Origin: Mesoflavibacter zeaxanthinifaciens DSM 18436
GTDB lineage: Bacteria > Bacteroidota > Bacteroidia > Flavobacteriales > Flavobacteriaceae
DNA: 64,000 bases
Assembly: GCF_000422365.1 (NCBI RefSeq)
Contig: NZ_AULQ01000008.1
Coordinates: 62,001 to 126,000 of the forward strand
Direction of reading: 5' to 3'
Below, piece by piece: positions 28,691 through 33,444 of the stretch (position 1 is its first letter; every line of letters starts with the position of its first letter). Under the pieces are notes generated by a model that had not been told where the DNA came from, did not search any database, and worked only from the letters and a program-made list of their open reading frames with translations. The translations under genes were made by a program, and so were the position numbers.

Positions 28691-30721
28691 ATGAATGTAC
28701 TTCTAAATAAATTTAACACAAAATACAATTCGGCACCGTTTCAAGCCATTAAAAACGAACATTTTAAGCCTGCAATTGAAACATTGATTAAAGAAACTAA
28801 AGCAGAAATAGAATCAATAGCAGGATCTAAGAATATTCCTACATTCAAAAACACTATTGAAGCATTAGAATATGCTGGTCAGCAATTAGATAGAGTTACG
28901 AGTATATTCTTCAATTTAAATTCTGCAGAAACAAATGAAGAGATTCAAAAGATAGCTCAAGATATTTCCCCTCTTTTATCAGAGTTTAGCAACGATATAA
29001 CTTTAAATGAAAAACTCTTTGCTCGCATCAAGGAAGTTTACAATCAAAAAGATCAACTAGATCTTACCGAAGAACAAATAACCTTATTAGACAAAAAATA
29101 TAAAAGCTTTGCTAGAAATGGTGCCAATCTATCTGAAGACAAAAAAGAACAGTTAAGAGCTATTGATAAAAAATTAGCTTCACTTAAATTAAAATTTGGC
29201 GAAAATGTATTAGCAGAAACTAATGCTTTTGAAATGCATATTACCAATAAAGCAGATCTAGACGGTTTACCAGAAGGCGCAATTGAAGCAGCACAACAAT
29301 TAGCCGAAAGCAAAGGTAAGGATGGTTGGTTAATCACTTTAGACTACCCAAGCTACATTCCTTTTATGACCTATGCAAAAAACAGAGCATTACGCAAAAA
29401 ACTGTCCATTGCTTTTGGTAATAAAGGATTTAATAACAACAAATTAGATAATCAAAATAATGTTTTAGAAATTGCCAAACTAAGACACCAACGCGCCAAT
29501 TTATTAGGCTATAAAACACATGCTCATTTTGTTTTAGAAGAGCGTATGGCAGAAACACCAGCAAAAGTAGAGAGCTTTTTAAACGACTTATTAGACAAAG
29601 CCAAACCTGCTGCAGAACGTGAGTTTGCTAACCTACAAAATTTTGCAAAAGAACTAGACGGTATTGACCATCTTGAAAAATGGGATAGTGCTTATTATAG
29701 TGAAAAGCTAAAACAAAAGCTTTTCAATTTAGATGACGAAAAACTTAAACCATACTTCAAATTAGAAAACGTTATTGATGGCGCTTTTAAAGTAGCTAAT
29801 AAATTATTTGGATTGACTTTTAAAGAAATTGATACTATTGACAAGTATCATCCAGATGTATTGACTTACGAGGTTTTAGATGAAAATGGCGACTTAGTTT
29901 CAATCTTTTATGCAGACTTTTTCCCACGTTCAGGAAAACGTAATGGAGCTTGGATGACGTCTTACAAACCTCAATTTGTGCAAAACGACTCTAATGAAAG
30001 ACCACATGTATCTATTGTTTGCAACTTTACTAAACCTACTAAAACAAAACCGTCTTTACTAACTTTTAATGAAGTTACCACGTTGTTTCACGAGTTTGGT
30101 CATGCATTACACGGTATGCTAGCAAACACCACTTACCCTAGTCTTTCAGGAACAAGCGTATATTGGGATTTTGTAGAATTACCAAGTCAAGTGTTAGAAA
30201 ATTGGTGTTACGAAAAAGAAGCGTTAGAATTATTTGCAACTCACTACGAAACCGGCGAACTTATCCCAATGGATTTAGTAGAAAAAATTAAAGAAAGTGC
30301 CACTTTTAACGAAGGTATGCAAACCTTACGTCAAATAAGTTTTGGTTTATTAGACATGCATTGGCATGGTATTGACCCAACCGAAGTTACAGATGTAAAA
30401 GCACACGAAAATGAAGCTTTTAAAGACACACAATTATATCCTGATGTAGAAGAAAATTGTATGAGCACAGCATTTTCTCATATTTTTCAAGGCGGATATT
30501 CTTCTGGGTATTATAGCTATAAATGGGCAGAAGTTTTAGATGCAGATGCTTTTGATTATTTTAAACAAAACGGCATCTTTAATCGTGATATTGCTTTAAA
30601 ATTTAAAGACAATGTACTTACAAAAGGCGGTACAGAAAATCCACTAATTTTATACAAACGCTTTAGAGGTCAAGACCCAAAACCAGAAGCTTTATTAAAA
30701 CGTGCTGGGTTGATTAAGTAA
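28691..30721 (+). CDS. M3-family oligopeptidase (Dcp/PrlC type)
   Basis: 676 residues, cytosolic (no signal peptide). The zinc site is HEFGH (467-471) within TLFHEFGHALHGML, and the third ligand glutamate lies in the downstream SYWDFVELPSQVLENW-type segment. The large N-terminal helical domain (1-330) and the PYFKLENVIDGAFKVANKLFG-type region fit Dcp/oligopeptidase A. It degrades short peptides, including cleaved signal peptides. Neighbouring genes give no more specific hint. Followed by a long imperfect hairpin terminator. Confidence 0.93.
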   Translation: MNVLLNKFNTKYNSAPFQAIKNEHFKPAIETLIKETKAEIESIAGSKNIPTFKNTIEALEYAGQQLDRVTSIFFNLNSAETNEEIQKIAQDISPLLSEFSNDITLNEKLFARIKEVYNQKDQLDLTEEQITLLDKKYKSFARNGANLSEDKKEQLRAIDKKLASLKLKFGENVLAETNAFEMHITNKADLDGLPEGAIEAAQQLAESKGKDGWLITLDYPSYIPFMTYAKNRALRKKLSIAFGNKGFNNNKLDNQNNVLEIAKLRHQRANLLGYKTHAHFVLEERMAETPAKVESFLNDLLDKAKPAAEREFANLQNFAKELDGIDHLEKWDSAYYSEKLKQKLFNLDDEKLKPYFKLENVIDGAFKVANKLFGLTFKEIDTIDKYHPDVLTYEVLDENGDLVSIFYADFFPRSGKRNGAWMTSYKPQFVQNDSNERPHVSIVCNFTKPTKTKPSLLTFNEVTTLFHEFGHALHGMLANTTYPSLSGTSVYWDFVELPSQVLENWCYEKEALELFATHYETGELIPMDLVEKIKESATFNEGMQTLRQISFGLLDMHWHGIDPTEVTDVKAHENEAFKDTQLYPDVEENCMSTAFSHIFQGGYSSGYYSYKWAEVLDADAFDYFKQNGIFNRDIALKFKDNVLTKGGTENPLILYKRFRGQDPKPEALLKRAGLIK

Positions 30722-30730
30722 TATTTTATG

Positions 30731-30796
30731 TCATTCTGAAGGTAGTAAATAATTAAAACATTAATTGTATTACTTCTTCAGAATGATATTTTTTTC
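30731..30796 (+). terminator. Long imperfect hairpin after the M3 peptidase gene
   Basis: TCATTCTGAAG (30731-30741) pairs with CTTCAGAATGA (30775-30785), with further pairing inward, and T-rich TATTTTTTTC follows. The outer stem matches the start of the intergenic repeat GTCATTCTGA, so the terminator may derive from it. Confidence 0.7.
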
Positions 30797-30800
30797 AATA

Positions 30801-30824
30801 AACTTTCAAAATTTATTGAAAGTT
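30801..30824. promoter_or_regulatory. Operator-like inverted repeat, copy 1 (GbsR/MarR promoter)
   Basis: AACTTTCAA-n6-TTGAAAGTT, 24 bp, 9-bp perfect arms. It ends 13 bases before the TATATTTG box of the regulator gene, where a repressor would block RNA polymerase. The same AACTTTCA-n8-TGAAAGTT occurs before the next gene (31368-31391). Confidence 0.6.
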
Positions 30825-30837
30825 TTAAAATTATTAA

Positions 30838-30845
30838 TATATTTG
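30838..30845 (+). promoter_or_regulatory. TAnnTTTG -7 box, regulator gene
   Basis: TATATTTG ending 4 bases before the ATG at 30850, so the transcript would be leaderless or nearly so. Confidence 0.55.
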
Positions 30846-30849
30846 TGTC

Positions 30850-31353
30850 ATGGAATATCAAGAAGCAAAAGATAAATTTATAAACACTTGGGGAAGTTTA
30901 GGCACGCTTTGGGGAATTAACAAAGCTATGGCTCAAATACAGGCATTGCTTTTTATTTCGACAAAACCATTATCTATGGAAGAAATCATGGAAGAACTTC
31001 AGATTTCTAGAGGTAACACAAGCATGAATCTTAGACAATTAATGGATTGGGGAATTGTTACAAAAGAGCTTATTCCGGGTGAACGTAAAGACTTTTTCAC
31101 TACAGAAAAAGACGTTGAAGAATTAGCTAGAATTGTAGCTAAAGAACGTAGCCGACGTGAAATAAAACCAGTTATTAAAGTATTAAGCGATGTTTCTTCT
31201 ATTAAAGATGATGGCACAGAAAAAACTAAAGAATTAATTAAACAAACAAAAGCTTTAAAAGAACTTACTGATAATTTAGACGTTTTAATGAACAAACTTG
31301 TAGACCAAAAACAAAACTGGATTACTAAGTCGTTATTAAAATTAATCAAATAA
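30850..31353 (+). CDS. GbsR/MarR-type transcriptional regulator
   Basis: 167 residues. A winged helix-turn-helix occupies about 20-90 (KPLSMEEIMEELQISRGNTS, MNLRQLMDWGIVTKELIPGERKDFF), as in the GbsR subgroup of MarR proteins. The C-terminal 60 residues are helical and Lys-rich, probably a dimerisation coiled coil. GbsR proteins usually respond to small osmolyte ligands such as choline; the ligand here is unknown. A 24-bp inverted repeat precedes this gene and recurs before the following membrane-protein genes, which suggests autoregulation and control of that operon. Confidence 0.85.
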   Translation: MEYQEAKDKFINTWGSLGTLWGINKAMAQIQALLFISTKPLSMEEIMEELQISRGNTSMNLRQLMDWGIVTKELIPGERKDFFTTEKDVEELARIVAKERSRREIKPVIKVLSDVSSIKDDGTEKTKELIKQTKALKELTDNLDVLMNKLVDQKQNWITKSLLKLIK

Positions 31354-31367
31354 AAAAATTTAAACCA

Positions 31368-31391
31368 AACTTTCAATATTTTCTGAAAGTT
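31368..31391. promoter_or_regulatory. Operator-like inverted repeat, copy 2 (membrane-protein operon)
   Basis: AACTTTCA-n8-TGAAAGTT, same 24-bp span and arms as copy 1, in the 54-base gap between the regulator stop and the next ATG. Downstream bases (TTCAAAATAAT) also resemble those after copy 1. Confidence 0.6.
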
Positions 31392-31407: not shown

Positions 31408-31761
31408 ATGAAAAATACGTTTAATAAAATTCTATTTCTAATAAATCTAGTATTCTATCTCATCGTGTTAGTTATACCGATTTATGAAAAAAATATTATT
31501 AGTGGTCTATTTTATCAATTTTACCTGGGCATATTTCAATTAATTTTAGGTGTATATTTCTTATCACTTAAAAGACCTAAAAAAGTATCTAACAATTTAG
31601 GCTACTATTGGACAACTGTAATTACATATTTTATTACTCTACCAATATTTTCTTCACTATTAAATAATGAAAAAAACTTTATAAATGTATGTTTAGTAAT
31701 TATTCCAATGATTATAGGGTTATATCATATCTATATTAATTACCTAATCAAAAAGACATGA
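31408..31761 (+). CDS. Small four-helix membrane protein, unknown
   Basis: 117 residues, four predicted membrane helices (about 8-26, 31-50, 67-87, 90-110) separated by short Lys/Asn loops (SLKRPKKVSNN). No conserved family recognised. First gene of a three-gene membrane operon behind the GbsR/MarR regulator; its stop overlaps the next start by 4 bases (ATGA). Function unknown; membrane stress or transport are possibilities only from context. Confidence 0.7.
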   Translation: MKNTFNKILFLINLVFYLIVLVIPIYEKNIISGLFYQFYLGIFQLILGVYFLSLKRPKKVSNNLGYYWTTVITYFITLPIFSSLLNNEKNFINVCLVIIPMIIGLYHIYINYLIKKT

Positions 31762-32108
31762 ACTTAAACATTATCACATACTGCATTTACCTACCAGTAA
31801 TAATATTTATTACGGTAAGAATTGGATGGATATGCTATAAAAATGGAGAATTATTTTTAAAAAATTTATTCAAAGACAAAGCAATAGTAAAATCAATTAA
31901 TAACTTATTACTTTTAGGATATTACCTAACTAATATAGGCTATGCTATAATTACCATTTCTTATTGGGAAACTATACATAATGTAGTCGAAGTAATAAGC
32001 AGCCTAACCTTTACTTTAGGAAAAATCATACTAATACTTGCCGCATTACATTACAACAATATTTTTTTGCTTCAATTAACACATAAACATAAATTTTTAA
32101 AACAATAA
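31758..32108 (+). CDS. Small membrane protein, paralogue A
   Basis: 116 residues, three membrane helices. It shares an ordered set of matches with the next gene product: IYLPVII, KNGELF, LFKDK, NLLLLGYYLTNIGYA and a late LG before the last helix. The ATG overlaps the preceding stop (ATGA), so translation is coupled. No known domain recognised. Confidence 0.7.
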   Translation: MNLNIITYCIYLPVIIFITVRIGWICYKNGELFLKNLFKDKAIVKSINNLLLLGYYLTNIGYAIITISYWETIHNVVEVISSLTFTLGKIILILAALHYNNIFLLQLTHKHKFLKQ

Positions 32109-32111
32109 ATT

Positions 32112-32510
32112 ATGGAACATTCAAAAATCATTATCGGTTACTTTATTTACCTACCAATAGTTATTGCACTAACAATATTTGTTTCTAAAATGCTCTTTAA
32201 AAACGGAAAGCTTTTTATGATAGATATTTTTAAGGGAAAAGAGGATATCGCTTTAGCAACCAACAAACTATTTGAGATAGGTTTTTACCTTATTAATATT
32301 GGTTTTGCACTGTATACAATGAAGATTTTTCACTACGGGAATAATCCCATGAGTTCTCAAACACTAATAGAAATTTTAAGTAAAAAATTAGGCGGATTTA
32401 CCATCTATTTAGGCATCATGCTATTTTTTAATCTGTTCCTATTTTTTAGAGGAAGAAAAAAATCTAGAACTACTACTAAAACGGTTTATAATCCTCAAAT
32501 AAATAGTTAA
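32112..32510 (+). CDS. Small membrane protein, paralogue B
   Basis: 132 residues, three membrane helices, then a basic tail (FFRGRKKSRTTTKTVY). It matches paralogue A at IYLPIVI, KNGKLF, IFKGK, NKLFEIGFYLINIGFA. The pair arose by tandem duplication. It starts 3 bases after paralogue A and ends the operon, followed by a terminator. Function unknown. Confidence 0.72.
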   Translation: MEHSKIIIGYFIYLPIVIALTIFVSKMLFKNGKLFMIDIFKGKEDIALATNKLFEIGFYLINIGFALYTMKIFHYGNNPMSSQTLIEILSKKLGGFTIYLGIMLFFNLFLFFRGRKKSRTTTKTVYNPQINS

Positions 32511-32519
32511 AACAAATAA

Positions 32520-32553
32520 TAAGCGGAAAATATTTAATTTCCGCTTACTTTTT
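32520..32553 (+). terminator. Terminator of the GbsR-linked membrane-protein operon
   Basis: Stem TAAGCGGAAA (32520-32529) and TTTCCGCTTA (32538-32547) with an 8-base loop, followed by CTTTTTA. Confidence 0.8.
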
Positions 32554-32634: not shown

Positions 32635-33186
32635 ATGCCAAAACACACTTTAAATCCTAACAATTGGGTTGATCTATATAGTGACTACCTATTTAATTAC
32701 ACAATAACGCGTGTAAATGATCGTGTTATTGCTCAAGATTTAGTGTCCGAAACTTTTTTGGCTGGGTTAAACGCTATGAAAAACTTTAAAGGTGAAGCAG
32801 CCGAACGTACTTGGCTTATTTCAATTTTAAAGCGAAAAATTATTGATTACTATCGTAAGATCAATTCTAATAAAGGAAAAGCCGAAGTTAGAATGACTTA
32901 CAATGATTCTGAATCTGAAGGCGATTGGTTAGAAGAGCGTATTGCAGATCCTTTTGACAAAACAGCAGAAGATAGCATTGAAAACGAAGAATTAGCAGAC
33001 GCAATACAAAGCTGTATTGCTAAACTACCTAAAAAACAAGCTGAAGTCTTTAAGAAGAAAACCATCTTAAATCAAGAAACAGAAACAATTAGTAAGGAAC
33101 TAAACATTACAGCGTCTAACCTATGGGTAATTGTTCACAGAGCTAGAGTTGCTCTTGCAAGTTGCTTAGAAAAAAATTGGTTTTAA
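32635..33186 (+). CDS. ECF-type RNA polymerase sigma factor
   Basis: 183 residues. Region 2 runs about 10-75 (DLVSETFLAGLNAMKNFKGE, RTWLISILKRKIIDYYRK) and region 4 about 125-180 (KLPKKQAEVFKKKTILNQET, ELNITASNLWVIVHRAR). A long linker with acidic residues (NDSESEGDWLEERIADPFDK) separates them. It resembles the sigma-70 group that travels with a small zinc-type anti-sigma, and the next gene, 3 bases downstream, encodes such a protein. Target genes unknown. Confidence 0.9.
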   Translation: MPKHTLNPNNWVDLYSDYLFNYTITRVNDRVIAQDLVSETFLAGLNAMKNFKGEAAERTWLISILKRKIIDYYRKINSNKGKAEVRMTYNDSESEGDWLEERIADPFDKTAEDSIENEELADAIQSCIAKLPKKQAEVFKKKTILNQETETISKELNITASNLWVIVHRARVALASCLEKNWF

Positions 33187-33189
33187 ATC

Positions 33190-33444
33190 ATGGGATTATT
33201 TTTTATTAAATGCAAAGAAGCTGGTCATGTTTGTGATAAATATCAATATGAAGAAGCTTCAATAACTGAAAAAATAAAACTTAAAATTCATTTAATGTAT
33301 TGTTCTGCTTGCAGAAAACACTCTGCATCAAACAAAAAATTAAGTCAGTTATTAAATAAAATTAAATTTCAGTTCTTATCTTCTGAAGAAAAAGATAATA
33401 TAAAAAAGTCTTTTGAAAAAGAATTAAAAAAGCATCAACAGTAG
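33190..33444 (+). CDS. Small zinc-binding anti-sigma candidate (ZAS-like)
   Basis: 84 residues, no membrane helix. His34-x3-Cys38-x2-Cys41 (HLMYCSAC) is the ZAS signature of zinc anti-sigma factors; Cys8 and Cys15 could supply the fourth ligand. The remainder is Lys-rich helix. It starts 3 bases after the ECF sigma gene. A redox- or metal-sensing cytosolic anti-sigma is inferred; binding is not shown. The 3' end overlaps the convergent UbiA-like gene by 21 bases. Confidence 0.72.
   Translation: MGLFFIKCKEAGHVCDKYQYEEASITEKIKLKIHLMYCSACRKHSASNKKLSQLLNKIKFQFLSSEEKDNIKKSFEKELKKHQQ

Follow-up and report, generated by a model that had tools for sequence, protein, structure and literature searches.

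The window, a stretch of 64,000 nucleotides from Mesoflavibacter zeaxanthinifaciens DSM 18436, contains the gene of a MarR-type regulator with the same 24-bp inverted repeat on either side, the second copy standing before three small membrane protein genes. The two repeats are termed UP and DN in the following, and the genes behind DN are referred to as cargo. The locus comprises these features:

30801-30824, no strand assigned: UP, a putative operator before the regulator gene, perfect 24-bp inverted repeat AACTTTCA-N8-TGAAAGTT
30816-30818, forward: -33 element TTG of the regulator promoter, recognised from the sequence and located in the right arm of UP
30838-30845, forward: -7 box TATATTTG of the TAnnTTTG type, followed after 4 bases by the ATG
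30850-31353, forward: GbsR-type MarR regulator of 167 aa
31354-31361, forward: A/T tract AAAAATTT directly before DN, with TTT at -9 to -7 from the operator
31368-31391, no strand assigned: DN, the second putative operator, a 24-bp inverted repeat without mismatch whose end is 16 bases from the next ATG
31408-31761, forward: cargo gene 1, a 117-aa membrane protein (label TM7) that matches 18 members of cluster F7, with no Pfam family above cut-off
31758-32108, forward: cargo gene 2, a 116-aa membrane protein (label TMpair, first member) that matches cluster F6, with no Pfam match
32112-32510, forward: cargo gene 3, a 132-aa membrane protein (TMpair, second member) with three long predicted helices and a cluster match
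32520-32547, forward: hairpin resembling an intrinsic terminator, with T tail, at the operon end
32635-33444, forward: ECF sigma factor (32635-33186) and putative anti-sigma factor (33190-33444), neighbours and not part of the switch

Throughout the window, AACTTTCA-N8-TGAAAGTT occurs without mismatch at UP and DN and at no further position, and 100 dinucleotide shuffles of the window gave a mean of 0.00 exact matches. With up to three mismatches allowed, matches are no rarity (3 versus 1.93 expected), so the weight of the observation rests on exactness and conservation. The original prediction had described both repeats with the same span as well as the gap of 54 bases between the regulator stop and the following ATG, and both descriptions are correct. 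The distance from repeat to -7 box, given there as 14 bases, amounts to 13 intervening bases, and the alleged similarity of the flanks holds for the right side, where TAAAA after the site is conserved at UP and DN, but not for the left flanks, which differ. By eye, a further inverted repeat, ATTCTGAAG/CTTCAGAAT with a T run, is seen directly before UP (30733-30784); it is probably the terminator of the upstream peptidase-like gene (28691-30721).

The proposed search of the genome for the 24-bp pattern was carried out and yielded no third exact copy in 2.97 Mb. Two near copies were found, one with 1 mismatch inside a reading frame and one with 2 mismatches between two convergent frames. A relaxed search with the core TTTCA-N8-TGAAA returned three sites without mismatch, namely UP, DN and C1:85566. 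A wider regulon was rejected: the third site lies behind a short gene, presumably similar to that of ribosomal protein L31, forms a hairpin followed by a T tail and is read as a terminator. Core matches with one mismatch are mostly due to chance, since the reversed-pattern counts were 8 and 8 versus 10 and 14.

The assignment of the protein to the MarR fold was corroborated in three ways. It scores 36.1 bits against Pfam MarR_2 (cut-off 27), which identifies a winged helix-turn-helix of MarR type. By sequence, residues 3-152 align over both domains with Mj223 of Methanocaldococcus jannaschii (PDB 1ku9; E 3.1e-25), and the structural model (mean pLDDT 91) returns 1ku9 as first Foldseek match (E 3.0e-10), so that Mj223 is the closest solved structure by sequence and by fold. 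Chains of E. coli MarR match the model weakly (E 1.8e-3). The regulator is not an equivalog of the choline sensor CudC/GbsR, as the NCBIfam CudC model gives 54.3 bits against a cut-off of 218. Pfam families of osmolyte uptake or betaine metabolism were found neither among the operon genes of the window nor among the 10 representative cargo proteins scanned, which did not include TM13, a check limited by the fact that several cargo families carry no Pfam name. A defence label was discarded: the matches of the regulator in PADLOC were weak and of helix-turn-helix type (best 7e-7, Csa3), and five membrane proteins submitted to it had no match. The same genome encodes a second, distant GbsR-type protein (L212, G000:C4:302892-303206; 32.8 bits to the CudC model).

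Comparison with related genomes ties the repeats to the regulator. Among 149 genomes, our own included, 40 have a protein match to the regulator at E <= 0.001. In the family set of 90 genomes (G000-G089; counted by hand, a match better than 1e-30 defining a regulator-bearing genome), exact sites occur in 17 of the 20 genomes with the regulator, always at its gene, versus 0 of the 70 genomes without it (Fisher 1.2e-15, genome relatedness not corrected for). Two of the three exceptions have pairs with 1 mismatch at the gene, and in the third the contig starts inside the gene. Sites with 1 mismatch are also present in genomes without the regulator (e.g. G003, G040, G042), where they are scattered and hence attributed to chance. 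Outside the family, one exact site was found (G106), away from the regulator.

The gaps around the gene were further compared in 80 named loci, the best of at least 570 relatives, which belong to Flavobacteriaceae genera or unplaced bins. The core TTTCA-N8-TGAAA is present at UP in 79 and at DN likewise in 79 of these 80 orthologous loci; chance would produce about 0.26 cores in 80 stretches of 150 bp. The best UP match within 150 bp has no mismatch in 59 loci, 1 in 15, 2 in five and 7 in one, and the best DN match within 200 bp has no mismatch in 28, 1 in 25, 2 in 13, 3 in 13 and 7 in one. Altogether, 1.23 Mb of sequence from the 80 loci contain 185 cores (79 UP, 79 DN, 27 elsewhere), compared to 2-21 for each other spacer length from 0 to 15 and 6 for a rearranged core, which singles out the spacer of 8. 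The sole exception, L134 from Cellulophaga fucicola, lacks DN, and its UP-type site, complete with -7 box, is found 794 bp ahead of the regulator gene; something may have been inserted there between promoter and regulator.

In the wider class, 104 of 295 genomes (own included) match the regulator alignment, and the best 30 of these 104 loci include 27 new ones. The UP core was found within 250 bp upstream in 25 of the 27 distant loci and the DN core within 320 bp downstream in 20; L181 and L190 have no UP core, and L188 has UP only at 139 bp upstream. Near-variants of the core are visible by eye in L181 and L183, outside these counts. In most of the 27 loci the letters SRGN of the recognition helix and the arms TTTCA/TGAAA are fixed together, and the loci without UP core (2/27) or DN core (7/27) still keep SRGN in the protein. 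The original observation stands and is far better conserved than visible from one sequence, and the repeats probably do serve the MarR protein encoded between them as operators.

At UP, the geometry of the promoter is conserved together with the operator. Of 79 loci, 62 have TTG and 17 have CTG at the place of the -33 element in the right arm, a TAnnTTTG box follows 12-14 nt behind UP in 78 of 79, and in 71 of these 78 the ATG of the regulator begins 3-5 nt after the box. In Flavobacterium johnsoniae the G of the -7 box lies at -5 (PMC6847099, here and below in its accessible part), which places the regulator start at or beside the A of ATG; the regulator mRNA should be leaderless, judging from this spacing. 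Such an mRNA is unusual and not unprecedented, as 5.5% of the mRNAs of F. psychrophilum are leaderless (PMC9723704, accessible part). A dimer on UP, overlapping the -33 element, would exclude RNA polymerase.

DN is built differently. In 66 of 79 loci its end is separated by 13-17 nt from the first long reading frame, whichever gene this is, and the TTT at -9 to -7 is present in 74 of 79. Across 79 windows of 170 bp (-110 to +60) TAnnTTTG was matched once, versus 78 of 79 loci with the box in place at UP, and no conserved second promoter element was found near DN. The spacer of DN is conserved, yet asymmetric (about AATWTTTTC) and not palindromic, its four inner pairs being self-complementary in 16, 6, 40 and 22 of 79 loci. 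Since DN has no -7 box of the UP type, no promoter was duplicated, and the earlier suggestion of a duplicated promoter-operator unit was abandoned. The A-rich stretch behind DN is in keeping with the adenines at -12/-13, which promote initiation in F. johnsoniae (PMC6847099). L072, L105, L111, L114 and L151 contain extra DN copies, each 13-15 nt ahead of a second cargo gene. Looping between UP and DN was dismissed as well, for the distances of 565-573 in most loci reach 601-678 in others and show no helical phasing.

Autoregulation combined with control of the following operon, as proposed originally, appears to be the best reading, because the pair goes with the MarR/GbsR regulator and UP overlaps the regulator's own promoter. 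We estimate at about 0.8 the probability that UP and DN are operators of the adjacent GbsR-type regulator, which would act by occlusion at UP and by a block at DN. The regulator dimer would bind TTTCA-N8-TGAAA; at UP it would cover the -33 element and shut RNA polymerase out, giving negative autoregulation of a leaderless mRNA, and at DN, within the 5' leader of the operon behind the regulator gene, it would halt transcription into that operon. Most likely DN would be a roadblock to polymerase that has started either at UP or at the A/T tract, where a weak promoter of non-canonical type may lie. A ligand, perhaps a lipid or another membrane-active compound, would release both sites.

Occlusion at UP and a roadblock at DN are favoured because the closest published parallel combines these modes in two proteins of Bacillus subtilis (PMC7396694, here and below in its accessible part). 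GbsR, which controls gbsAB and opuB and belongs like our regulator to the Mj223-like subfamily of MarR proteins, has an A/T-rich inverted-repeat operator downstream of the transcription start that acts as a roadblock and is likened here to DN; gbsR is also auto-regulated. OpcR, which controls opuB and opuC, has an operator overlapping the -35 region, just as UP overlaps the -33 element (PMC7396694). The differences are equally clear. The half-sites of the GbsR operator are 4 bp apart versus 8 here, GbsR targets choline and betaine genes, none of which is named among the cargo, and operator and targets of OpcR differ from those of the UP/DN system (PMC7396694). Unlike OpcR, one regulator here seems to use both operator positions at its own locus. 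For the archaeal Mj223, the operator is termed unknown in the accessible part of PMC7396694.

A close rival of the roadblock, concerning DN only, is a weak, non-canonical promoter of its own at DN, composed of the A/T tract and the T-rich spacer, which the regulator would occlude; we consider this variant somewhat less probable than the roadblock, though a serious candidate. The conserved TTT speaks for it, the more so as the A/T tract with its TTT recurs before the extra internal DN copies, where no regulator end is near. In Aquimarina, Kordia and some other genera a terminator-like hairpin is seen by eye between regulator and DN, which in Aquimarina and Kordia ends with a T tract at the TTT position; read-through from UP would accordingly be weak there and a promoter near DN needed. 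The lack of TAnnTTTG and of a conserved second element argues against such a promoter, the alternative start motifs described for F. psychrophilum (PMC9723704) lying outside the scan.

That the regulator activates, replacing a weak -33 contact at UP and aiding a non-canonical promoter at DN, is improbable. CTG instead of TTG in 17 of 79 UP sites and a DN with no canonical box but with a conserved A/T tract at fixed distance would suit an activator, and some MarR proteins do activate, one of them being presented as an activator in the abstract of PMC6036246. Against this stand the near-consensus -7 box at UP in 78 of 79 loci, the position of DN in the leader and the fact that the studied GbsR and OpcR are repressors (PMC7396694).

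Very little favours DN acting as RNA, i.e. as a leader hairpin that controls translation or termination in place of a DNA operator. Its transcript folds into a stem of 8-9 bp (-6.0 to -7.5 kcal/mol) at a suggestive distance before the ATG (13-17 nt in 66 of 79), and pair 2/21, complementary in 59 of 79 loci and mostly C-G, is G-C in eight of the 79, both sides having changed. A symmetric protein dimer would explain this change equally well. Moreover, pairing is lost elsewhere (outer pairs retained in 48 and 64 of 79, inner ones as given above) while TTTCA/TGAAA is invariant; UP has the same letters but, located before the -7 box, should not be transcribed; and no T run follows DN, unlike the core-bearing terminator at C1:85566. 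That the repeats belong to another regulator and stand here by coincidence would be hardly credible, given 0 of 70 regulator-less family genomes with an exact site and the invariable position at the regulator in the 17 others.

Control of three small membrane proteins, the remaining part of the original prediction, applies to this genome and the congener at L144, whereas other loci carry different genes behind the same operators, among them those of methyltransferases, epimerases, a desaturase, DUF2071, DCC and DoxX-like proteins and others. Reading frames behind the regulator (ATG, at least 50 aa) were grouped by single-linkage clustering in 76 loci, i.e. the 80 minus L066, L078, L106 and L117, whose regulator escaped the simple caller. 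On the right, the cargo is bordered by the ECF sigma factor in 66 of these 76; the ten others have no downstream frame or sigma border, leaving 66 complete loci. The nearest NCBIfam model of the sigma factor, TIGR02943, stays below cut-off, and its small partner is zf-HC2-like.

The 66 complete loci display 46 distinct ordered gene lists of 1-7 genes, and yet 13 families account for 250 of the 251 same-strand genes, the remaining one being a fragment of a family; seven opposite-strand frames were left out of this count. Gaps in some loci suggested missed small genes, and same-strand frames were therefore recounted with family profiles, giving 46 lists and 44 sets in 70 loci; restricted to loci free of large gaps, of which there are 53, the number of sets is 36. 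This recount employs the same 13 families and hence is no test of whether the pool is closed. Gene order is nearly constant (TM7 before EPI 25 to 0, MT before EPI 22 to 1, TM8 before MT 18 to 3). Pfam names obtained for the cargo are methyltransferase, epimerase with DUF1731, DUF2071, DCC1-like, DoxX_3 and FA_desaturase; SRPBCC is our own label without Pfam support. In the class outside this family, the cargo profiles match genes behind the regulator in most loci, with no sigma factor seen beside the regulator in L191-L210; no cargo profile matched in L161 and L208, and the caller missed the regulator in L199 and L204.

Of the 70 loci of the recount, 22 contain both related membrane proteins of the TM pair (31758-32510) and none contains just one of them; single matches were observed in L162 and L207. 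The second member, with a mean column identity of 73%, has no Pfam family above cut-off and no solved relative by fold, and Foldseek gave no lead to the function of the pair (best E 0.71; mean pLDDT of the model 71.5). The cargo of L150 (G052) looks as if it were decaying: its TM-pair gene behind DN seems to have no ATG, and the genes of methyltransferase and epimerase are shortened or split. A light or photolyase regulon, prompted by methyltransferase, epimerase, desaturase and ECF sigma factor, was rejected: no photolyase was seen by eye among the unassigned neighbours from 13 loci, and the sigma factor neighbours only Flavobacteriaceae loci.

The presence of most cargo families is almost unrelated to the species tree. 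A quick tree built from GcvP for 48 loci, with 13 of 45 inner branches open, requires at least 16-17 presence changes for TM7, 14 for EPI, 13 for TM8 and 12 for MT, and 100 state shuffles gave means of 16.4, 16.0, 16.3 and 15.3, respectively. SRPBCC alone clearly tracks the tree (2 changes vs 5.8 shuffled); MT and TM8 perhaps do so, with 7 and 6 of 100 shuffles as low. The sister loci L102 and L103 (0.959 GcvP identity) have no cargo family in common, and identical sets are found in three Aquimarina pairs and in L073/L101. Mean set overlap is 0.68 above 0.95 GcvP identity (6 pairs), 0.34 at 0.92-0.95 (6 pairs), 0.29 at 0.88-0.92 (54 pairs) and 0.27 below 0.84 (977 pairs).

Protein distances were also correlated with those of GcvP. 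Spearman coefficients are high for SIGMA (0.84), UBIA (0.82) and REG (0.76); those of EPI (0.70), the TM pair (0.62 and 0.73) and TM8 (0.59) are about like that of the small ANTI (0.60). Low values were obtained for MT (0.40), DUF2071 (0.00) and TM7 (0.02), the last being short, divergent and a poor witness of descent. It follows that part of the cargo is inherited with the species and lost, and part may be exchanged, gain and loss not being told apart.

According to the literature, the GbsR osmostress group has an aromatic cage near the linker, and a survey of 2018 obtained 'no consistent picture' from the gene neighbourhoods of Bacteroidetes GbsR-type proteins (PMC6207618, accessible part). 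In that part, operators and a shared gene pool are not mentioned. The survey set presumably includes members of the regulator group found here, and a constant switch with changing cargo may explain the inconsistent neighbourhoods. Searches of the open-access literature found nothing on a combination of the cargo families, nor on GbsR operators in flavobacteria, those for MarR with Bacteroidetes and TIGR01777 returned unrelated papers only, and no open-access paper on a constant-switch, changing-cargo system was found. What is new is a constant putative switch with a changing cargo set drawn from one pool.

We tentatively suggest, at less than even odds, that across families of the class a fixed switch serves changing cargo drawn from about 13 families of membrane, lipid and redox genes, a closed pool under diversifying selection, with DN and its A/T tract as a portable unit. 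If so, the turnover of cargo would be rapid enough to leave sister species with no family in common, the selection could concern, for example, membrane remodelling against phages, toxins or host defence, and DN with its A/T tract could be copied before further cargo genes. The inconsistent neighbourhoods of Bacteroidetes GbsR-type genes could belong to one system with the DNA signature TTTCA-N8-TGAAA on both sides of the gene. A defined signature makes ligand and purpose testable and offers a handle on uncharacterised membrane families such as the second member of the TM pair, and the locus would exemplify a regulator that is retained while the genes of its operon are replaced.
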